Source of the DNA: Pyxidicoccus trucidator
Lineage (GTDB): Bacteria; Myxococcota; Myxococcia; Myxococcales; Myxococcaceae
NCBI RefSeq assembly: GCF_010894435.1
Contig: NZ_JAAIXZ010000009.1
Span: forward strand, 229,342 to 293,341
Reading direction: 5' to 3'
Length of the DNA: 64,000 nucleotides
Made by a program: the position numbers and the translations under genes. The notes under the pieces are model-generated. The model had not been told where the DNA came from. It did no database searches and saw only the letters and a list, made by a program, of their open reading frames with translations. Below, in pieces: positions 52,584 through 63,092 of the stretch (position 1 is its first letter; every line of letters begins with the position of its first letter).

Positions 52584-53531
52584 TCAGCGGAGCACGCGGG
52601 CACTCGCGCGGAGCACCCCACGCGCCACCCGGCGCACCGCGTCCACCCGCCTCGCGGGGATGGCGGGCGGGTCCACCGGAGCGTCCCAGTCGAAGGTGCG
52701 CAGCCGGGACAGGAACCCTTGTCGCACACAGCCCTCCAGGCTGAAGACGTGGAGGTCATGCGTCCACCGCACCGCGAGCCGCAAGTCCCGGGAGAGCTCC
52801 GCCCAGTCCAGCGGCGGAGGAAGGCGCGCGCCCGGCAGCTCCACCCCGCCCCCGGTGATGCCCACCGCGATGGAGGACGCCCCCGGGCCGTAGCTCCACA
52901 GCACCGCCGCGCCGTGCGGGCGCACGAAGCTGGAGTAGAGCATCAGCACCTCGCGGTCCGCCGGCAGGTCCAACACCCCGGACAGGCGCTGCAGCAGCGT
53001 GGAGCGCGACTGCCGCTCGTCCACGATGAACGGGAACTGGTAGGTGTCCACCCGGTACCCGTCCGCGCGGATGCGCTCCACCAGCGCGACGTACCCGGCC
53101 CGAGCCTCCCGCACGCGCCCTCCCCGCACCACCCTGGGCAGCAGTCCCGACAGCCGTCGCCACCCACCTTCGAGCACCTCACGCAGCTCGCGAAGGTCAG
53201 GCTCGATGTCCAGGCCCACACCCGCCCACTCCAACCCGTGCTCCGCCGTCCACGCGCGGAAGGCGTCGTAGCGCGCCGTGGCCTGCGCGACGTTGCCCGC
53301 GTGGAACCAGTAGCCCTGGTCCTCGGGTAGCAGCAGCCACGCCGTGACGGGAATGCCCGCGCGGTTCAGGCGGCGCACCTCCTCCGCGCGCTCGGGACCC
53401 AGGTCGAGCAGGCCCAGGCTCACCCCCGCCCGCAGCGCCACCAGGTCCTCGAGCACGCCCGAAGTGGCGAGTAGCTCACGCAACGGCCCGGGTGCCAGCT
53501 CGCAGAAGAAGGTCAGCAGGTGCAATTTCAT
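52584..53531 (-). CDS. hypothetical protein, possible TIM-barrel hydrolase
   Basis: The 315-residue protein has alternating beta/alpha segments and WAGVGLDIEPDLREL near residue 105, reminiscent of the acidic strand of glycosidase-like TIM barrels. RVDTYQFPFIVDE and VLMLYSSFVRP follow. There is no signal peptide and a basic C-terminus. It is divergent from the VOC gene with only 33 bases between starts. Function not assigned. Confidence 0.6.
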   Translation of the reverse strand: MKLHLLTFFCELAPGPLRELLATSGVLEDLVALRAGVSLGLLDLGPERAEEVRRLNRAGIPVTAWLLLPEDQGYWFHAGNVAQATARYDAFRAWTAEHGLEWAGVGLDIEPDLRELREVLEGGWRRLSGLLPRVVRGGRVREARAGYVALVERIRADGYRVDTYQFPFIVDERQSRSTLLQRLSGVLDLPADREVLMLYSSFVRPHGAAVLWSYGPGASSIAVGITGGGVELPGARLPPPLDWAELSRDLRLAVRWTHDLHVFSLEGCVRQGFLSRLRTFDWDAPVDPPAIPARRVDAVRRVARGVLRASARVLR

Positions 53532-54819: not shown

Positions 54820-55398
54820 CTACGCGCGCACCAGCACGGCGGGCAGGAGCGGCACCTTGAGGAACTCCACGCGCGTGGGGCGCACGGGCACCTCCGGCCA
54901 GCCGGGCTGCGCCAGCGCCGCCAGCAGCTCCGTCACCGGGTACTGGAAGGACTCGAAGTGGCTCGGCCCGGACATGGGCTCCAGGCCCCAGGCGAGCGCG
55001 ATGCGCAGCCGCTCACAGCGGGCCAGGTCCGCCATGTACGCGGGCAGCGTGCCGCGAGGGGCCGCCTCCAGGTAGCGGCAGAAGGCGATGGCCTCCTCGC
55101 GGTTGAGCAGCTCCGGGAGCGCGTCCTGGAGGAAGTCCTTCAGCACCGGCAACAGGCCGGGCCTCACCGCGGGGTCCGCCCACGGCAGGTGCTCGTGCAC
55201 GCGAGACAGGCGGTGGCCGTCCAGCATCCGCCCCGCCCGCTCCACCACGTTGGCGTCCGCGCCCGCCAGGCCCTCGCGCTCACGCGGGGTCAGCGCGTAA
55301 GGCGCCATGGCCGCGTGCGCGTCCTGCAGCCAGGCCTGGCGAAAGCGCGCGTCCACATGCAGCCGCGCCAGCACCTCCAGCGTCTCCGGGTAGCCCAT
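54820..55398 (-). CDS. probable MNIO partner protein
   Basis: The 192-residue protein is the last gene of the operon, 12 bases after the MNIO gene. Its N-terminus (LARLHVDARFRQAWLQDA, APYALTPREREGLAG) resembles small LigA/Nif11-like helical domains. The centre and C-terminus are not recognised. MNIO enzymes usually need a cognate partner encoded next to them (MbnC, TglI, HvfC types) for precursor binding. By position this protein should fill that role, though clear similarity to those families cannot be shown by eye. Confidence 0.65.
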   Translation of the reverse strand: MGYPETLEVLARLHVDARFRQAWLQDAHAAMAPYALTPREREGLAGADANVVERAGRMLDGHRLSRVHEHLPWADPAVRPGLLPVLKDFLQDALPELLNREEAIAFCRYLEAAPRGTLPAYMADLARCERLRIALAWGLEPMSGPSHFESFQYPVTELLAALAQPGWPEVPVRPTRVEFLKVPLLPAVLVRA

Positions 55399-55410
55399 GA
55401 TGTCTTCTCC

Positions 55411-56244
55411 TCAGGCCGCGCTCGCCCCGCAGCGCTTGAGGATGGCGCGGGCACGGGCCAGCTCCTCCACCAGCCGCGAGAACGGCGGGAAGCCGCTGTC
55501 CATCTCGAAGTTCACTCCACGCACCGGGCAGCGCGGCGCCACGTACTCCAGCAGCCGCCACACCTCGTCCGGAGAGACGGACGAGTGGCTGTCCACGTAC
55601 ACGCCCTCCATCGTCACCCCACCCGCCAGGTGGATCTGCACCACCCTGTCCAGCGGGAGCCGGTCCACGAAGTGGTACGGGTCGAACTTGTGGTTCACCG
55701 CGTTGGCGTAGACGTTGTGCAAATCCAGCAGCAGCCCGCAGTCCGACTCCTTCACCACGCGGGTGAGGAAGTCGGCCTCGTCCAGCGTGCTGAGCGGCGT
55801 GTCGAACAGCCAGGCGATGTTCTCGATGACGAAGGGCATGCCCAGGTCCGCCTGCACGCGGCGGATGTTGCGCACGCACGTCTCCAGCGCCTCCTCCGTG
55901 AAGGGCACCGGCGTGAGCGAGCGCACCGGCAGCTCGCCCGCGCGGGTGAAGCACAAGTGGTCCGAGTGCCACGCCGCCCGGGTGAGGCCCAGGAAGCGCT
56001 TCAGGTCCTCGCGGTAGCCCGGCCCGTCCACGCCGTCCGAGCCCACCGACAGCTCCAGGCCGTGGCCGGCCAGCGGGAAGCGCTTCGCCAGCACCTCCAG
56101 CCGCCGCACCGCGTCCTCCGTCAGCGGGAGGAAGTGCTCGGGCATCACCTCCAGCCAGTCCACACCCGGGTTGCCCCGGGCGAGGTTGGGCTGGAAGTCC
56201 CAGCGATAGCTGAGCCCCACTCCGAGGAACGGAATCGCCGCCAC
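55411..56244 (-). CDS. DUF692-family multinuclear non-haem iron oxidase (MNIO), MbnB/TglH-like
   Basis: The 277-residue protein has the complete DUF692 signature: LEVMPEHF (E32, E36), AGHGLELSVG (H61), WHSDHLCF (H93, H96), VIENIAW (E141, N142), LLLDLHNVYAN (D174, N177), VQIHLAGG (H205), VYVDSHSSV (D218, H220) and VNFEMDSGFP (E247). These fit the two- or three-iron active site of MbnB, TglH and related enzymes, which oxidatively rearrange cysteine residues of ribosomal peptides. The natural substrates here are the seven KCSCGG peptides encoded upstream in the same operon. Confidence 0.88.
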   Translation of the reverse strand: MAAIPFLGVGLSYRWDFQPNLARGNPGVDWLEVMPEHFLPLTEDAVRRLEVLAKRFPLAGHGLELSVGSDGVDGPGYREDLKRFLGLTRAAWHSDHLCFTRAGELPVRSLTPVPFTEEALETCVRNIRRVQADLGMPFVIENIAWLFDTPLSTLDEADFLTRVVKESDCGLLLDLHNVYANAVNHKFDPYHFVDRLPLDRVVQIHLAGGVTMEGVYVDSHSSVSPDEVWRLLEYVAPRCPVRGVNFEMDSGFPPFSRLVEELARARAILKRCGASAA

Positions 56245-56254
56245 GGCCAGCCTC

Positions 56255-57100
56255 CTACTTCTTCCTGCGCGCCATCACCTGGAAGTGCTGCCCCTGCAGC
56301 GCGAAGCCCTCATGCGCGAACTTCTCCTGCATCGCGATGATTTCGTCGCGCGCCGCCCACACGTCGAAGTCCGGGCCGCGCTCGGCCTGCATCGCCTCGA
56401 GCATCTCGAAGTACATGACGGGCTTGCCGAAGATCTCCTCCACGTCGGCGCCGGCGGCCTTCACGCCGTCGTGCAGCTCCTTCAGCGTAAAGAGGTGCAC
56501 CGGCAGCCCGTACGGGCACTTGCCGCGCCCGGTCATCAGCATCTTCAGGGCCTCGGCCTTCTTGCCGTGCTTCAGCTCGAACATGAAGTGCTCGTTCAGG
56601 TTGTCCACGCCCATGATGACCGGCCCGCCCGGCTTCACCACGCGCACCAGCTCGCTCATGGCCTTGGGGTACTGGTCCAGGCAGTAGGACACCGGGTCGC
56701 CCTCGCTGAACACCAGGTCGAACGAGGCGTCCTCGAAGCGCAGGTCCGCCACCGTGCCCTCGACGAAGGTGGCCCGCTCCAGCAGCCCCTTCGAGGAGAG
56801 GTGCGCCTTCGCCGAGTCCAGCATGCCCGCGGAGATGTCCAGCACGGTGACGTGGTGGCCGGCCTCCGCGAAGCGCGCGCTGAACTTGCCGCCACCGCCG
56901 CCAGCGTCCAGCACGCGCCAGGACGTGCCGGCCGGAGGCAGCACCTTCTGGACGGCCGCCCAGGTGAGGTGGTCGTAGACCACCCAGAACAGCTTGTGCG
57001 CCGCCTTGGTGTAGTTGCTGTTGTTGTACGTCGACGACACCTGGTCGTAGCGGCTGGAGATGTCCTGCGGCTGGGGAGGCGTGGGGGTGGTGGCGCTCAT
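56255..57100 (-). CDS. SAM-dependent methyltransferase
   Basis: The 281-residue class I methyltransferase has motif I VLDAGGGGGKFS, motif II HVTVLDISAGML, and SFDLVFSEGDPVSYC. The N-terminus (SSRYDQVSSTYNNSNYTKAA) is polar and lacks a signal. It lies 10 bases before the MNIO gene and 21 bases after the DUF5916 gene, so it is part of the operon and probably methylates the peptide product or an intermediate. Confidence 0.82.
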   Translation of the reverse strand: MSATTPTPPQPQDISSRYDQVSSTYNNSNYTKAAHKLFWVVYDHLTWAAVQKVLPPAGTSWRVLDAGGGGGKFSARFAEAGHHVTVLDISAGMLDSAKAHLSSKGLLERATFVEGTVADLRFEDASFDLVFSEGDPVSYCLDQYPKAMSELVRVVKPGGPVIMGVDNLNEHFMFELKHGKKAEALKMLMTGRGKCPYGLPVHLFTLKELHDGVKAAGADVEEIFGKPVMYFEMLEAMQAERGPDFDVWAARDEIIAMQEKFAHEGFALQGQHFQVMARRKK

Positions 57101-57121
57101 GACGGGTTCACTCCGGGCACA

Positions 57122-59242
57122 TCAATACGTGAAGGAGATCTTCGAGAGGATACGGCGCTCCTGCGAGCCGTTGAAGGGCTGGTCCGAGTAGACCAGGAAG
57201 AGGTCGCTCCACGGCCGGTAGTGCCAGCCGAAGACGGCGTCCAGCAGCGTGCCCTTCACGTTGCTGTAGTCGGCCAGCTCGGAGACGGCGCCCTGCTGGA
57301 AGGTGATGCGGGTGTAGAGGTTCGGGTTGAACTGGTAGCGCAGCTGCGCGTAGCCGCTGTACGAGTGGCCCGTACCGGACGTGCCATACAGCTCGCTGTG
57401 CGTCGGCACGTCCTCGCTCTCCGTGTAGAAGGCGCTCAGCCTGGCCTGGAGCCGGTTGCCCAGCTTGTAGTTGAGGGCGGCGTTGATGCCGCGCGTCGGC
57501 CCCCCCAGGAAGCGGCCGGTGAAGGCCGTCAGCGTCAGGCTCTGCCAGTCGTTGGGGAAGAGGATGAAGCCACCCGTGGCCACCCGGTCCTTGAAGCCCT
57601 CGTTGTTGTCGTAGACGTAGTCCGCGTAGAGGGCGAAGTTGTGGTGCAGGTAGGGCGTCACGTTGACGCGCTGGCGCAGGCGGGTGCGCACCTTCTCGTG
57701 GTTGCGCCGCCAGAGGGTGTCCCAGGTGAGGTTCACCTGCGGCAGGAAGCGCAGCCCGGGGAACGGCGTCAGGTACAGGTGCGTGTTCCAGCCCTGCTTG
57801 TCGAGCACCGGCGTGTAGCCCAGGGGGTTGGCGTACCGCTCGCCGATGTCCTCCAGGTGGACCCAGAACTCGGAGTTGGTGTCGAAGCGGTGGATGGCCA
57901 GCTTGTACGCCTCGGAGTTCTTCGAGCCCGCCGCGTCGCTCCAGCTCTTGAGCGCCTGGGCCTGGATGAAGACCTCTTCCCAGATGTGGATGTTGGCGTC
58001 GAGGCCGGCGGTGCGGAACCAGCCGTACTTGTCGCCGTAGCGGCTGACGCCGATGAGGTTGATGGCGGAGCGCTTGCCGATGTCGTGCTGCAGGCGAAGG
58101 ACGCCGGAGTTGAGGTTCTCCTTGATGGTGGTGCCGTCCCCCGGGTCGTCCTCGTGCTGCACGTCGAGGAGGGCGAAGCCCAGGCCGCCGACCTTACCGG
58201 TCAGCTGCCCGCCGCCCCAGATGCGGTCATGCGGCTTCATGGCGATGCGGCGGGAGGTGAAGATCTTGATGGGCGCCAGGAAGAGGTGCTCGGACTCCAC
58301 GAAGAAGGGACGGCGCTCGGGAAGCAGCGGCTCATCGGTGTCCAGCAGCAGCCGGTCCTGGTCCGCCTCCACGTCTGAGAAGTCCGGGTTGACGGTCAGC
58401 TTCAGGGCCGCCCAGGGGGTCGGGTCGATGCGGGCGTCAAGGCCCGCGTTGGGCCGGAGCATCTTCCGACTCTCGGTGGTCTTCAGCGCGAAGTCGGTGG
58501 CGACGTACGGGGTGACGCTCCAGCTGCGGCGCCCCTGGATGTTCTTGAGGCCCTCCAGGTGCGGGAAGCGGCTCACCTTGGCGCTGTTGACGCCGTCCGG
58601 CGTCCAGTTGCTCCACTCCTGGGTGCGGGCCTGCTCGCGGTCCAGCATCAGGCCGAACGTCACCTCCTCGCCCTCCGGGAACTGGAAGTTGGCGAAGGGG
58701 ATGCGCATCTCGGAGTACCACCCGGTGTCGGTGACGGAGCCCATGGTCTCCCACTCACCCACCCAGGACGTGGTGAAGGCCTCGCCGTCCGCGACGATGC
58801 GGCCGTCGGTGCGCACGCCCAGCGGATTGGTCCAGAAGTAGTAGGCGTTCCGGTGGTCCTTGAACGTGTCCAGCATCACCGTGACGTTGTCCTCCTGGTG
58901 GAGGAAGGAGTCGTTCTGGACGCTGTAGGCCGTGATCTTCGACGGGTCCTTGTCGAGGCAGTGGAAGAGCACGTACAGGTTGTGCTTGTCGTAGAGGATG
59001 CGGACCTTGGTGTCGTCAGGCGCCGGCTTGCCGTAGTTGATGCGCGTGAGGTACCAGCCAGAGACCTCCGTCGCCGTCTGCCACACGGCCTCATCCGGCT
59101 TGCCATCGATGGTGATGGGCTCGGCGGTGAAGGTGGCCTTGTAGTTGTAGTGCTGCTTGTCGGGGGGTGAATCGGCAAAGGCCAGAGCGGGCAGACACGC
59201 GACGAACAGCGCGGCGCCCCAGGCACAGGTAGACGGTTTCAT
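57122..59242 (-). CDS. DUF5916 outer-membrane-type protein with CBM9-like domain
   Basis: Its ATG overlaps the MFS stop (59239-59242). The 706-residue protein has a signal peptide (CAWGAALFVACLPALAFA). A carbohydrate-binding family 9-like N-terminal domain follows (ITIDGKPDEAVW, VRILYDKHNLYVLFHCLD). A long DUF5916 region has RPFFVESEHLF and many alternating beta strands, and the chain ends KISFTY with a terminal aromatic residue typical of barrels. In this operon it could be the outer-membrane exit or receptor for the peptide product. Confidence 0.82.
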   Translation of the reverse strand: MKPSTCAWGAALFVACLPALAFADSPPDKQHYNYKATFTAEPITIDGKPDEAVWQTATEVSGWYLTRINYGKPAPDDTKVRILYDKHNLYVLFHCLDKDPSKITAYSVQNDSFLHQEDNVTVMLDTFKDHRNAYYFWTNPLGVRTDGRIVADGEAFTTSWVGEWETMGSVTDTGWYSEMRIPFANFQFPEGEEVTFGLMLDREQARTQEWSNWTPDGVNSAKVSRFPHLEGLKNIQGRRSWSVTPYVATDFALKTTESRKMLRPNAGLDARIDPTPWAALKLTVNPDFSDVEADQDRLLLDTDEPLLPERRPFFVESEHLFLAPIKIFTSRRIAMKPHDRIWGGGQLTGKVGGLGFALLDVQHEDDPGDGTTIKENLNSGVLRLQHDIGKRSAINLIGVSRYGDKYGWFRTAGLDANIHIWEEVFIQAQALKSWSDAAGSKNSEAYKLAIHRFDTNSEFWVHLEDIGERYANPLGYTPVLDKQGWNTHLYLTPFPGLRFLPQVNLTWDTLWRRNHEKVRTRLRQRVNVTPYLHHNFALYADYVYDNNEGFKDRVATGGFILFPNDWQSLTLTAFTGRFLGGPTRGINAALNYKLGNRLQARLSAFYTESEDVPTHSELYGTSGTGHSYSGYAQLRYQFNPNLYTRITFQQGAVSELADYSNVKGTLLDAVFGWHYRPWSDLFLVYSDQPFNGSQERRILSKISFTY

Positions 59243-60537
59243 CCGGGCTCCTGGGATGGGGTGAGGACGGGGGTGTGGGCGACAGGTGCCGGTGCGCTGC
59301 GCTCCGGAGCCCAGGCCATGGCGACCAGGGACAGGAGCAGCGCACCGGAGGACAGCAGGAAGGCACTGGAGAGCCCGGCATGCCGGGCGACGAAGCCATA
59401 GCTGAGGGGCGCGAGGACCTGGGCAAGCGCCGCGCACGAGCCGAGCGCGCCGAGGAAGCGGCCACGCTCCGAAGTCGGAGCCACCTCCACCACCACCGCC
59501 TGGGCGGCGGGCCGGTGGAGGCCGTCCGGCACGGCGAGCAGCGCCCAGGCCACCACCATGACGATGAGGCCGTACGGCGCGGGCAGCCAGCCGGCCAGCC
59601 CGAGCACGGCGCTCATGAGCACCATGCCCGCCAGGCCCGCGAGGATGAGGCCGCTGCGCCGGGGCAGCCCGTCCGACAGGCGCCCGCCAAAGGGCTGCGC
59701 GAAGGCGTAGACGAGCCAGGAGACGGCGACCAGCGGCCCCACCAGCTCGGCGGGCGCGCCCAGTTGCATCGCGTAGAGCGGGATGTAGATGGGGAAGAGG
59801 TTCAGGGCGAAGGCGAAGAAGAACTGCCAGACGAAGAGGCCGGCCATGCGCGGCGTATCGCGCACGTAGTCGAGCGGGGCGCGCAGCGACTCCAGCGCCA
59901 GCCGCAGGTGGCTGCCCTTCGGCTCCGCCTTCGGTGCCTCGCGCCTGGGCTCCTCCAGCTTCAGGAGCAGCAGGCTGCTGACGAGGAAGAGCGCGCCGGC
60001 GAGGAAGAAGGTGTGCTGCGTGCCCAGCCAGCGGATGACGGCGGCGGAGGCCGCCAGCGCCGCGACGAAGGTGAGGCTGCTGGTGGCGTCCAGGAGGGAG
60101 AAGATGGTGGCGCGCTTCTTCGACGGCGCGAAGTCCGCCACCAGCGCGCCATTCACCGGCTGCGCGGTGCGCGCCAGCAGCAGCTTGAGCGACAGCGCCG
60201 CGGCCAGCGGCAGCGGGTGCGAGAAGAGCGCCATCAGCGGCACCAGCAGCGACGTGGCCAGCGACAGGCTCACCACGAAGGCCTTGCGGCTGTAGCGGTC
60301 CGACAGCGCCCCCATCACCGGCTGCAGGAAGATGGGCACCAGCGAGCCGGCCGTGTACACCAGCCCGATGCCCTGCAGATCCAACCCGCGCGACTGGAGG
60401 TACAGCGGCATCACCGGGTTGAGCAGCCCTCCGGCCACCGTGCCCACCAGGCCGGACACGAGCAGCACCCGCAGGTTGCCCAGCCCCTGCGTCAGCTCGT
60501 ACATCTCGCGCACCGCGCGAACGCCCCGGGCAATCAT
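59239..60537 (-). CDS. MFS transporter
   Basis: The ATG at 60537 overlaps the stop of the S16-like gene (ATGA). The 432-residue protein has 12 hydrophobic segments and the MFS motif GALSDRYSRK between helices 2 and 3, with a related GGRLSDGLPRRS in the second half. It sits in the inner membrane. Within this operon it is the likely exporter of the mature peptide; a role as importer cannot be excluded. Confidence 0.85.
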   Translation of the reverse strand: MIARGVRAVREMYELTQGLGNLRVLLVSGLVGTVAGGLLNPVMPLYLQSRGLDLQGIGLVYTAGSLVPIFLQPVMGALSDRYSRKAFVVSLSLATSLLVPLMALFSHPLPLAAALSLKLLLARTAQPVNGALVADFAPSKKRATIFSLLDATSSLTFVAALAASAAVIRWLGTQHTFFLAGALFLVSSLLLLKLEEPRREAPKAEPKGSHLRLALESLRAPLDYVRDTPRMAGLFVWQFFFAFALNLFPIYIPLYAMQLGAPAELVGPLVAVSWLVYAFAQPFGGRLSDGLPRRSGLILAGLAGMVLMSAVLGLAGWLPAPYGLIVMVVAWALLAVPDGLHRPAAQAVVVEVAPTSERGRFLGALGSCAALAQVLAPLSYGFVARHAGLSSAFLLSSGALLLSLVAMAWAPERSAPAPVAHTPVLTPSQEPG

Positions 60538-61169
60538 GCCGCCACCCCGCCCGGAATCGCCGCGCCCGCCGCGGCAGCGGCCTGACGCAGCGGCAGCGCG
60601 CCCAGCACGGACTCGGCACCCTCGGTGAGGGTGGCGACGGGGCGCACGTCGAGGGAGGCGAGGGGCGCGGCGTCCCACTGGCTGCCGGCGGGCACCCACA
60701 CCGGCACGCGCCCGGCGGCCGCGTGGACCTGGCGCACGTAGCCGTCCGCGACGGCCAGCTTGCCCTGGAGCTTCTCGAGCGGCGCGGACACCAGCGCCTC
60801 GCCCGCGTCCAGCGCCACGCCCGTGGCCAGGAAGGGGGCGGGCAGCTCGCGCCCGGCCAGCAGCGCCACCCACGCGACGAACAGCGGCAGGGACGCGCTG
60901 CGCCCGTCCAGCAGCACGCGCCGGCCTCGCACGGAGACGAACAGGTCCGTCTCGTCCCAGGGCAGCGCGTAGCGCCCGCGGCCCACGGCCGCCAGGTGGC
61001 GCAGGTGCTGCTGCCAGGCCGGCGCGTAGCCGGTGTCACGGGACAGGTCCACCCAGAGGCGGCCTTCGCCCGGGCGTACCGCCACGTCGACGGACACGGC
61101 CCGGAACAGCGGCGCGCCATGCAGGTCGGCCTGGGTGAGCAGCAGGAGTGGCGTGGACGAGGAGCTCAA
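60534..61169 (-). CDS. stand-alone Lon (S16)-like peptidase domain, candidate leader peptidase
   Basis: The frame has no ATG; TTG at 61169 is the most likely start, giving 211 residues, but its ribosome site is poor. Residues 75-141 follow the Lon catalytic pattern: DLFVSV, then LLDGRSASLPL (S91 aligned with the Lon nucleophile in GPSAG), LAGRELPAPFLATGVAL, and APLEKLQGKLAVA (K133 or K137 as the general base). There is no ATPase domain. Located between the precursor array and the exporter, it may cut the constant N-terminus of the peptides. The alignment is by eye. Confidence 0.62.
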   Translation of the reverse strand: MSSSSTPLLLLTQADLHGAPLFRAVSVDVAVRPGEGRLWVDLSRDTGYAPAWQQHLRHLAAVGRGRYALPWDETDLFVSVRGRRVLLDGRSASLPLFVAWVALLAGRELPAPFLATGVALDAGEALVSAPLEKLQGKLAVADGYVRQVHAAAGRVPVWVPAGSQWDAAPLASLDVRPVATLTEGAESVLGALPLRQAAAAAGAAIPGGVAA

Positions 61170-61205
61170 GGGAAGGGAGCAGCGAGGTGAAGAGGGAGGA
61201 AAACA

Positions 61206-61245
61206 CGGGCGGGACTCGGCCCCCGAAGGAGCCGCTTCCCGCCCG
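61206..61245 (-). terminator. hairpin after last precursor gene
   Basis: CGGGCGGGA (61206-61214) pairs with TCCCGCCCG (61237-61245), with inner CGGC (61217-61220) and GCCG (61231-61234). It lies between precursor A and the S16-like gene. It could terminate part of the transcripts or stabilise the precursor mRNA. Confidence 0.55.
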
Positions 61246-61255
61246 CGAGCTTCAA

Positions 61256-61354
61256 CTACTCGGCGACGCGAACCTGCGCGGCGACCATGGTGCCACCGCA
61301 GGAGCACTTGTCGGACGAAGCGGAAACGCGAACGATCTGGGCCTTGACGTACAT
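61256..61354 (-). CDS. RiPP precursor-like peptide A (32 residues)
   Basis: The peptide has the shared 23-residue part (MYVKAQIVRV, then SASSDKCSCGGTM) and a tail VAAQVRVAE. Ser replaces Ala at position 11, the only copy with this change. AAAGAGG stands 6 bases upstream. It is the last unit of the array and is nearest the S16-like gene. Confidence 0.8.
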   Translation of the reverse strand: MYVKAQIVRVSASSDKCSCGGTMVAAQVRVAE

Positions 61355-61474
61355 GGTGAACCTCTTTCGGGGTGCTGGGTTGAGCCCATCCACGGTCCGG
61401 CGAGCCGGCCCCCGGACGGGGTGCTGCGCAACGGCGAGGGCGGAAGGAAGACCTCCCGCCCCTGCCGGTGTGGA

Positions 61475-61570
61475 CTACTCCGCGATGCGGACCTGCGCGG
61501 TCATGGTGCCGCCGCAGGAGCACTTGTCGGACGAAGCGGCAACGCGGACGATCTGGGCCTTGACGTACAT
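61475..61570 (-). CDS. RiPP precursor-like peptide B (31 residues)
   Basis: Shared N-terminal part ending KCSCGGTM, with tail TAQVRIAE. The AAAGAGG ribosome site is 6 bases upstream. The tail is close to that of peptide A. Confidence 0.8.
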   Translation of the reverse strand: MYVKAQIVRVAASSDKCSCGGTMTAQVRIAE

Positions 61571-61652
61571 GGTGAACCTCTTTCGGGGTGTTGGGGTTGA
61601 GCCCAACCGCGGCCCGGCGAACCGGACCGCGGGCGGGGTGCTGCACAACGGT

Positions 61653-61683
61653 GCGGGTGGAGAGAGAGACCCTCACCACCCGC
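61653..61683 (-). terminator. hairpin between precursors C and B
   Basis: GCGGGTGG (61653-61660) pairs with CCACCCGC (61676-61683), 11 bases after the stop of peptide C in the direction of transcription. A smaller imperfect GC hairpin lies after peptide B at 61438-61460. Confidence 0.4.
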
Positions 61684-61694
61684 GCCGAGGAGGA

Positions 61695-61790
61695 CTACTC
61701 CGCGATGGTCAGGTTCGCGGACATGGTGCCGCCGCAGGAGCACTTGTCGGACGAAGCGGCAACGCGGACGATCTGGGCCTTGACGTACAT
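61695..61790 (-). CDS. RiPP precursor-like peptide C (31 residues)
   Basis: Shared N-terminal part ending KCSCGGTM, with tail SANLTIAE. The leader differs slightly (GGTCCACAC before ATG) but keeps AAAGAGG. Confidence 0.8.
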   Translation of the reverse strand: MYVKAQIVRVAASSDKCSCGGTMSANLTIAE

Positions 61791-61855
61791 GTGTGGACCT
61801 CTTTCGGTGCTGCGGGTTGTGGGCGTGAGCCCGGATGAACTACGGAACACAACGG

Positions 61856-61954
61856 CTACTGGATGACCGCCGCGTCGGCGAGGGTCATGGTGCCGCCGCA
61901 GGAGCACTTGTCGGACGAAGCGGCGACGCGAACGATCTGGGCCTTGACGTACAT
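61856..61954 (-). CDS. RiPP precursor-like peptide D (32 residues)
   Basis: Shared N-terminal part ending KCSCGGTM, with tail TLADAAVIQ. The leader has AAAAGAGATCCCC. The tail type (ending VIQ) is shared with E and F, whereas A, B, C and G end in AE. Confidence 0.8.
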   Translation of the reverse strand: MYVKAQIVRVAASSDKCSCGGTMTLADAAVIQ

Positions 61955-62002
61955 GGGGATCTCTTTTCGGTGATGTGAGTGGTTGGGGGGCGTGAGCCCG
62001 GA

Positions 62003-62101
62003 CTACTGGATGACTTCGGCGTTGTTCAGGGTCATGGTGCCGCCGCAGGAGCACTTGTCGGACGACGCGGCGACGCGAACGATCTGGGCCTTGACGTACA
62101 T
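62003..62101 (-). CDS. RiPP precursor-like peptide E (32 residues)
   Basis: Shared N-terminal part ending KCSCGGTM, with tail TLNNAEVIQ. AAAGAGG lies upstream. A 301-base stretch separates it from F; that stretch holds a 14-bp hairpin near F and otherwise no gene I can support. Confidence 0.8.
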   Translation of the reverse strand: MYVKAQIVRVAASSDKCSCGGTMTLNNAEVIQ

Positions 62102-62357
62102 GGTGGACCTCTTTCGGTGTTGGGGTTGAACCCGGCCTCGTTCCGGCGAACCGGCTCGCAGCCGAGGCGCTACGAGCGACACGGGCCTGAAGAAGACTGA
62201 TTGCCCGCGCCGCCACTACTACCCGAGCCCCCTGACACGCGTTCTGGGACACCGCGGGTCGCGCGCTCATGAGCAGGCACGACGATAGATACACGCGTTG
62301 CAGCCACGTCCATCGTGGTCCTCTTGGGGGTGTGGGTTTGAAGAGCGCCGCAAACGA

Positions 62358-62389
62358 GAAGGGCGGGGAGGTTTTCCTCCCCGCCCTTC
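62358..62389 (-). terminator. strong hairpin dividing the precursor array
   Basis: GAAGGGCGGGGAGG (62358-62371) pairs perfectly with CCTCCCCGCCCTTC (62376-62389) around a TTTT/AAAA loop. It lies 12 bases after the stop of peptide F on the minus strand, so it could separate precursors G-F from E-A. No long U-tract follows. Confidence 0.6.
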
Positions 62390-62401
62390 CTTACTTCCCA
62401 A

Positions 62402-62494
62402 CTACTGGATGACCTCGCGCACCGTCATCGTGCCACCACAGGAACACTTGTCGGAGGAAGCGGCAACGCGGACGATCTCAGCCTTGACGTACAT
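62402..62494 (-). CDS. RiPP precursor-like peptide F (30 residues)
   Basis: The most diverged copy at DNA level, with Glu for Gln at position 6. The KCSCGGTM core is intact and the tail is TVREVIQ. The leader is CTGAGAGGTACATC before ATG. Conservation of the cysteines despite silent changes suggests selection on the core. Confidence 0.8.
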   Translation of the reverse strand: MYVKAEIVRVAASSDKCSCGGTMTVREVIQ

Positions 62495-62533
62495 GATGTA
62501 CCTCTCAGGTGTTGGGGTGTTGGGAGCTTCGAA

Positions 62534-62626
62534 CTACTCCGCGACGGTGAGGACCGTCATGGTCCCGCCGCAGGAGCACTTGTCGGAGGAAGCGGCGACG
62601 CGAACGATCTGGGCCTTGACGTACAT
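62534..62626 (-). CDS. RiPP precursor-like peptide G (30 residues)
   Basis: First unit of the array, with tail TVLTVAE after KCSCGGTM. The frame is open further upstream, but the AAAGAGG site and the match to the other copies fix the start at 62626. Confidence 0.82.
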   Translation of the reverse strand: MYVKAQIVRVAASSDKCSCGGTMTVLTVAE

Positions 62627-62652
62627 GGTGAACCTCTTTCGGTGGTGGGTTG

Positions 62653-62724
62653 GCCTGTGCTGTGAAACAATGCGTTCCGTGTCACAGGCGTTGTGTGTGT
62701 TTTTAAGAAAATGAAACACACACA
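62653..62724 (-). promoter_or_regulatory. upstream region of precursor array with two inverted repeats
   Basis: TGTGTGTGTTT (62692-62702) pairs with AAACACACACA (62714-62724), and GCCTGTG (62653-62659) pairs with CACAGGC (62683-62689). The stretch is much more AT-rich than the surroundings and sits 27-98 bases before peptide G. It is a likely promoter/operator or the 3' end of the PqqD-like transcript. Confidence 0.45.
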
Positions 62725-62813
62725 TCTGGTGGCTCTTCGGGCAAAGCGAGGCCATGGCCTGACTTGCCAGGGAAGAACCCAATGAGTTGTGCTTGCAGGA
62801 TGAGAAGGCGTTC

Positions 62814-63092
62814 TCAGGAAACGCCGGACGGCTCGCAGAGTCCGAGTTCCAGGAACTGAGCTACAGTACTCTGGACGTCTTCAACGATTTCCTGGCGGGG
62901 AGCCGTTGCGCCCAGTCCGCTGGAGAGTGCCTGCACCGCGTCCTCGAGCGTGCTGCCAGTGCGGCACAGCTCGAAGATACGGGCGGCGGTCTCGTTTACT
63001 CGGAAGACCTCTCCACCTTCGGTGTCCAGGAGGAAGAACGCGTCCTGCTGCTGCTGGACCATGACACCGGCCACTGCTCGTGGAAGGACCAA
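62814..63092 (-). CDS. PqqD-like RiPP recognition element protein
   Basis: TTG at 63092 is the start: CAGGAGAG lies 6 bases upstream. The 92-residue protein follows the PqqD/RRE pattern: DAFFLLDTEGGEVFRVNETAARIFELC, read in pieces as strand-strand-helix, then GSTLEDAVQALSSGLG and EIVEDVQSTVAQFLELGL. RREs bind leader peptides and deliver them to modifying enzymes. It is the first gene of the cluster, 187 bases upstream of peptide G, and should recognise the constant N-terminus. Confidence 0.82.
   Translation of the reverse strand: MVLPRAVAGVMVQQQQDAFFLLDTEGGEVFRVNETAARIFELCRTGSTLEDAVQALSSGLGATAPRQEIVEDVQSTVAQFLELGLCEPSGVS

Follow-up and report, generated by a model that had tools for sequence, protein, structure and literature searches.

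Seven tandem short genes in Pyxidicoccus trucidator, together with the genes around them, are best read as a RiPP biosynthetic cluster of an apparently undescribed family, in which the precursors would be modified, cleaved and exported by proteins of the same cluster; we give this reading a probability of about 70%. The evidence consists of the conservation of the units, the co-occurrence of the cluster genes, the predicted folds and the pattern of constraint. The window (the whole stretch of 64,000 nucleotides that was analysed) contains the array within one discrete 8.3-kb cluster, at about 54820–63092. The earlier note had recognised the array and treated it as the unit of interest; the array stands, but the MNIO cluster around it had been missed, and the functional unit is the whole cluster.

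The array and its cluster

The order of transcription is PqqD-like protein, leader region, array, Lon-fold protein, MFS exporter, DUF5916 protein, methyltransferase, MNIO and MNIO partner. Downstream of the array, neighbouring genes either share 4 bp or are separated by no more than 21 bp. Each of units A–G below was identified as an ORF with a ribosome-binding site (RBS) and a match to a unit HMM.

62814–63092, minus strand: PqqD-like protein, presumed RiPP recognition element (PF05402, 47.8 bits against a cutoff of 23.4)
62627–62813, minus strand: 187-bp leader region between PqqD and unit G, inverted repeats conserved in a five-genome alignment
62534–62626, minus strand: unit G, first in the transcript, MYVKAQIVRVAASSDKCSCGGTM-TVLTVAE
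62402–62494, minus strand: unit F, tail TVREVIQ
62170–62313, minus strand: short ORF MDVAATRVSIVV... in a 300-bp spacer, RBS and start unit-like
62003–62101, minus strand: unit E, tail TLNNAEVIQ
61856–61954, minus strand: unit D, tail TLADAAVIQ
61695–61790, minus strand: unit C, tail SANLTIAE
61475–61570, minus strand: unit B, tail TAQVRIAE
61256–61354, minus strand: unit A, tail VAAQVRVAE
60534–61169, minus strand: stand-alone Lon (S16) proteolytic-domain-like protein, presumed leader peptidase (fold, two aligned residues)
59239–60537, minus strand: MFS exporter (PF07690, 8.9e-49), overlapping the Lon-like gene by 4 bp
57122–59242, minus strand: DUF5916/CBM9-like protein with a signal-like N-terminus by eye (PF06452 and PF19313), overlapping the MFS gene by 4 bp
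56255–57100, minus strand: SAM methyltransferase (PF13649, 2.6e-22)
55411–56244, minus strand: MNIO (DUF692) oxidative maturase (PF05114, MbnB_TglH_ChrH, 266.8 bits, above the curated cutoff of 25)
54820–55398, minus strand: MNIO partner, TglI-like (PME-type 2), from the fold match of its structure model

The sequence confirms seven intact ORFs of 30–32 codons each on the minus strand at 61256–62626, as had been claimed, and a ribosome-binding site of the GAGG/GAGA type lies ahead of each. The span of the array was right; the coordinates of units B and C have been corrected to those given above. All seven units share a 23-residue head, MYVKA[QE]IVRV[AS]ASSDKCSCGGTM, also described before, although its first six residues, the likely leader, had not been set apart. 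The tails, of 7–9 residues, fall into the two groups that the earlier note distinguished, ending in AE (A, B, C and G) or VIQ (D, E and F). Copy F is indeed the most diverged in DNA, with a head 86–90% identical to those of the other copies (93–100% among themselves), and it retains both cysteines. When the unit HMM was run against the whole 12.7-Mb genome, the window units were returned at E-values of 6e-19 to 8e-22; because of these values, and because differences between the heads are mostly synonymous (pS 0.27, pN 0.03), the array is not a product of chance. The units are conserved as ORFs, with no internal stop in the unit matches listed from a six-frame search; the result by which the earlier note would have been refuted was thus not seen.

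The short ORF in the spacer between units F and E gave no match to the unit HMM; from its unit-like RBS and start we tentatively regard it as a probable decayed eighth unit. A perfect 14-bp inverted repeat lies just past unit F (window 62358–62389), other spacers of the array also carry GC-rich hairpins, and these could adjust the balance between precursor and enzyme messages. The leader region, with its inverted repeats TGTGTGTTT...AAACACAC and CCTGTG...CACAGG, is a probable promoter/operator. No sigma-70-like promoter was found upstream of the array, and a sigma-54-like TGGC...TTGC seen there by eye, its spacing one base too short for the consensus, is not claimed. Comparison with PHROGs returned no matches. 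Outside the cluster, a 315-residue protein encoded at window 52584–53531 is conserved beside the cluster site in five array-free genomes opened there, and matches nothing in Pfam or NCBIfam at E up to 0.01.

Constraint and proposed product boundaries

In 36 units from five congeneric genomes, pN/pS (pooled over non-independent pairs, all pairs being used for the head and those of equal length for the tail) comes to 0.12 in the head and 1.15 in the tail, and 43 reciprocal-best pairs between genomes give 0.11 and 1.03, respectively. The same measure gives 0.51 and 1.44 for 32 units of a second genus (two decayed units left out), and 0.36 and 1.49 for 14 units of a third. These ratios point to strong constraint on the head and none comparable on the tails, and in both the first and the second genus they favour one of the proposals of the earlier note, that the chemistry is fixed while the tail is diversified. 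The five genomes hold 28 distinct tails among their 36 units; V, T, A and S are abundant in the 65 distinct tails from 84 units of three genera, and no cysteine occurs in any of these 84. An array holds from 2 to 9 units in a given genome.

The further proposal that copy number sets the dose fits one genome only, G116. The G116 array (L127, 9306–10175, reversed strand) has the same tail in seven of its nine units, most of which repeat at an exact 128-bp period, and is a recent amplification of one peptide.

Across 90 separate units, both cysteines are present in all 90, E/Q at position 6 in 89, Y2 in 88 and I7 in 86, the two without Y2 being the third units, both decayed, of L120 and L121. A natural polyprotein bears on the boundaries: in G142, which belongs to another genus, a single 181-residue ORF fuses seven units, with one leader (MYNKPQ) followed by seven cores (IARVAATTDKCTCSNGMVVVLAAE, then IKRV..., and so on), so that the Y-x-x-P leader precedes the first core only. 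The six inner junctions read AE/I (four), PE/I (one) and AA/I (one), and the protein ends in AQ, its last core in ATTAQ. Of the 65 distinct tails, 51 have E as their last residue, 12 have Q and 2 have A, against a share of 6% for E/Q inside tails.

Since the tails almost always end in E/Q, and E/Q precedes the next core in the G142 polyprotein, the tail would seem to belong to the product, forming its C-terminus as far as the cleavage point. The simplest reading of these ends would be cleavage after E/Q, with the stop codon replacing the last cleavage. On this sequence pattern we infer that a leader of six residues, MY-x-x-[AS]-[QE], is removed by a cut after E/Q and that the product, of 24–28 residues, keeps its tail. 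The polyprotein alone is not proof, because units could also become fused in this way by recombination at the AE codons they share, and the E/Q rule has exceptions in the AA/I junction of G142 and in the tails of two orphan arrays, which end in Cys. W/Y/LxxP/L/I recognition sequences (YxxP-type) are described for PqqD, FusE, lasso and other RREs in passages of PMC12710340, and the Y-x-x-P/A/S of the unit leader fits them.

The orphan arrays are second arrays of three units each, in G122 (L130, about 1754–2182) and G127 (L131, about 1730–2159). Their tails carry a further cysteine in addition to the terminal one (e.g. DSCTCGGGMTTTTTTCTGLVQSSDC), and no maturation genes were recognised beside them on the 8.9-kb contigs.

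Putative maturation proteins and relation to known systems

The metal-site motifs of the superfamily, which include iron-binding residues, are kept in the MNIO: D95-H96, E141-N142, D174, N177, H205, D218, H220 and E247 are invariant in all 19 MNIOs compared. The window protein was also aligned with 3bww, TglH and MbnB, and most of these residues are identical in the alignments to 3bww and TglH. The protein reaches no NCBIfam equivalog cutoff. Its best match there is BufB (NF050167, 208.6 bits against a cutoff of 310), and it scores 114.5 of 400 bits with ApyH (NF050151, aminopyruvatide), 68.1 of 600 with ChrH (NF050165) and 23.6 of 325 with MbnB (TIGR04159, methanobactin). The PqqD-like protein likewise falls below the cutoffs of all four PqqD models that it matched in NCBIfam. 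For the MNIO partner a PDB sequence search returned nothing, but a fold search with its model (pLDDT 87.5) gave TglI in TglHI as the best match (8hi7_A, E 3.5e-4, probability 1.00). No DUF2063 profile is among the families matched by any of 19 partners at E up to 1. The PME-type 2 partners described in passages of PMC12452194 resemble this TglI-like protein.

The Lon-like protein is a stand-alone protein of 211 residues without an AAA+ domain. Its model (pLDDT 80.8) matches the proteolytic domain of E. coli Lon in Foldseek (2.4e-10), and VIA-align superposes it on the Lon proteolytic domain with a Z-score of 19.3 and an rmsd of 2.4 over 172 residues, at about 20% identity. All 15 PDB sequences matched by the Lon-like profile (E 0.03–1) are Lon. 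All 12 Lon-like proteins compared have S91 and K137, and a weak alignment to the Lon of the same genome (hhalign probability 8.7%, E 0.0039) places these two opposite the DGPSAG serine and the second lysine of LKEK. The Pfam scan assigned the window protein to no family, and the Lon_C cutoff was not reached, one of 12 members matching at E 0.15. The fold list for the model also includes the S16-fold domains of RadA and ComM, which are not known to be proteases. From its modelled fold and the two aligned residues, the protein is presumed to be a candidate leader peptidase. At L154, L155 and L156 (G116, G142 and G115, respectively) the profile match holds one TGA each and probably runs past the stop.

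With roles assigned from family and position, the following pathway can be proposed. The PqqD-like protein would recognise and present the six-residue leader; the MNIO and its TglI-like partner would oxidise the cysteine(s) of D-K-C-[ST]-C, perhaps forming a heterocycle of thiooxazole or related type; and the methyltransferase would add a methyl group. The Lon-fold (S16) Ser-Lys peptidase, or another protease, would then cut after E/Q and before Ile, giving a product that runs from Ile7 to the terminal E/Q (24–28 residues in the genus Pyxidicoccus) and may be exported by the MFS and DUF5916 proteins. One enzyme set acting on the units of a genome would yield a small library of products, alike in the CxC head and diversified in the tail. 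Passages of PMC12668002 describe a Lys-Cys motif as the substrate, and copper binding as the function, of 5-thiooxazole peptides, and by analogy both are plausible here; binding of copper or another metal is a first guess at function. As a counterpoint, the MNIO gene lies four genes from the array, not adjacent to its precursor gene as in bufferins. Taken as a whole, the more ambitious reading is one we offer tentatively: a new RiPP class in which a stand-alone Lon-fold peptidase frees MNIO-oxidised CxC peptides after Glu/Gln, from many one-core genes or, in another genus, from a seven-core polyprotein, so that each bacterium has its own small library, whose oxidised head stays constant while the tail evolves fast and is put to use outside the cell.

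The cluster apparently represents a new family within the MNIO-dependent RiPPs, being neither bufferin, chryseobasin, methanobactin nor pearlin. It shares with the bufferins/captophorins (BufABC; an MNIO and a DUF2063 partner, thiooxazole copper peptides) an MNIO closest to BufB, a Lys-Cys motif and Cys as the presumed target. It differs in that the MNIO falls below the BufB cutoff, DUF2063 is not matched and a PqqD-like protein is added; the precursors, encoded in arrays of separate short genes, have 30–36 residues and no signal peptide or EGKCG repeats, start with MY-x-K/Q/N and consist for half their length of the CxC part plus tail (by eye). In pearlins, a Cys is added at the C-terminus of a long scaffold peptide, then modified and cleaved. 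Their TglHI system shares the TglI fold of the partner, but here a methyltransferase, a Lon-like protein and an array are present, with no long scaffold peptide in the cluster and presumably no C-terminal Cys addition. The chryseobasin/DybA family likewise has an MNIO (ChrH) acting on a Cys-rich, Gly-Met-containing motif; the motif here is CxC-x-x-x-M, with no CPACGMG, the ChrH score is far below its cutoff, and a separate partner is present. The chryseobasin/DybA family is also known in Myxococcota, according to passages of PMC12636315.

Prochlorosins combine one maturase with many precursors. They have the same arrangement of one enzyme set and several precursors with constant and variable parts, but their chemistry is another; in the present array it is the tail that varies, and the cysteines presumed to be modified belong to the constant part. 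Compared with the S16 domain of Lon, the Lon-like protein has the same fold and the aligned Ser and Lys, but it stands alone, below the Pfam cutoff, in a RiPP cluster. Three features are unusual: arrays with a constant head and diversified tails, the occurrence of such units fused in a natural polyprotein, and a candidate peptidase that has the Lon fold and stands alone.

Five motif strings of the units are absent from the main texts of the open literature searched, and no word starting with 'myxo' or 'pqqd' occurs in the main text of the MNIO landscape paper, PMC12452194. As passages of that paper describe, the survey took genes just before MNIO genes; surveys of this type would miss the array, because it does not lie just before the MNIO gene. 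Passages of the literature on MNIO with PqqD do not describe this family, and what was found on RiPPs, Corallococcus and PqqD concerns thioamidated RiPPs. Spread over 22 genomes, the 90 separate units and the single natural polyprotein of the family form a naturally replicated set for studying the action of an MNIO on CxC, the reading and cutting of a very short leader, and the possible use of a Lon-fold domain as a dedicated maturation peptidase; the diversified tails are a natural combinatorial system that is directly testable.

Distribution and alternative explanations

The unit HMM matches 22 of 195 genomes of the phylum, in four genera, and the named records matched by the precursor query include Pyxidicoccus caerfyrddinensis and Myxococcus sp. 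RHSTA-1-4. The genomes found with the Lon-like profile are the same 22; two further weak matches of that profile lie in ORFs (784 and 798 codons) that resemble full-length Lon. In all 22 loci PqqD lies directly upstream of the array and the MFS gene beside it; DUF5916, methyltransferase, MNIO and partner are present in 19, the contigs of the other three ending within MFS, and gene order is kept as far as the contigs reach. In the MNIO tree each genus's rows group together, with weak support (74/53) for the largest genus; one old cluster with losses, or a few transfers, is possible.

Across 61 genomes (the source genome and 60 relatives), array, PqqD, Lon-like protein and MNIO ortholog occur in the same five, all of the window's own genus, with close MNIO orthologs 91–93% identical. 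Ten weak matches to the units in this search (E 0.1–1) were left out of the count, most of them falling in unrelated or long frames. In the array-free congeners G021, G006, G012 and G005, MenB directly adjoins the gene that flanks the far side of the cluster (hlyIII, or in G005 glyoxalase, 71 bp away), which constitutes an empty site; the spacing is 33 bp in G012, and 0.5–0.9 kb of unrelated sequence in G006 and G021. In array-free G014 (L090), MenB and glyoxalase are about 7.8 kb apart, with no cluster genes detected. The co-occurrence of these genes in five of the 61 genomes, together with the empty sites, indicates that the cluster is a single unit of inheritance.

This inheritance bears on whether two systems merely lie side by side, the array with PqqD, Lon-like and MFS genes, and DUF5916, methyltransferase, MNIO and partner with a substrate elsewhere, so that the array peptides are modified by an unlinked factor or not at all. 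MNIO precursor genes usually precede the MNIO gene directly, as described in passages of PMC12452194, and here four genes intervene. We nonetheless think a division of this kind quite improbable: both halves are together in all 19 loci long enough to show it, in four genera, and both are absent at the empty sites. There is also hardly room for another precursor gene, because the gaps listed from the Lon-like gene to the partner (pairs with both gene ends derived) are at most 38 bp. Another alternative, in which the units would be small peptides that bind metal or have a structural role without being modified, and are merely used or exported by their neighbours, is very improbable indeed; CxC-G-G peptides can bind metal without modification, but a PqqD-type protein, an MNIO and an MNIO partner together are parts of RiPP maturation.

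The earlier note also raised the tail as a removable follower, a recognition or solubility tag, so that the product would be the CxC part only and gene number would raise the dose. The identical tails in G116 agree with this, as does the lack of residue-level constraint on tails except at the end, and the conserved end itself could be an export or protease tag. We consider it unlikely, since dose alone would let concerted evolution keep the tails alike, against the 28 distinct ones in 36 units, and since the terminal E/Q recurs directly before the next core at the polyprotein junctions, which places the cut after the tail. Our preferred reading remains a RiPP cluster whose products retain their tails.

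Some matches fall outside this set. Six of the eight loci from the precursor query (L093–L098, Bacteroidales) were dropped as chance matches, a DKCSCGG-like stretch lying inside frames of about 930–1130 residues. The MNIO of G005 was rejected as an ortholog, being only 45% identical and in another neighbourhood; its locus (L089, 12064–12882, reversed strand) adjoins glycosyltransferase-like and asparagine-synthase-like ORFs by eye, and is perhaps another MNIO cluster. Within the set, at L034 (G010), the PqqD gene lies in two frames (residues 1–60 and 60–91) and may be broken or mis-sequenced; eight units remain there.
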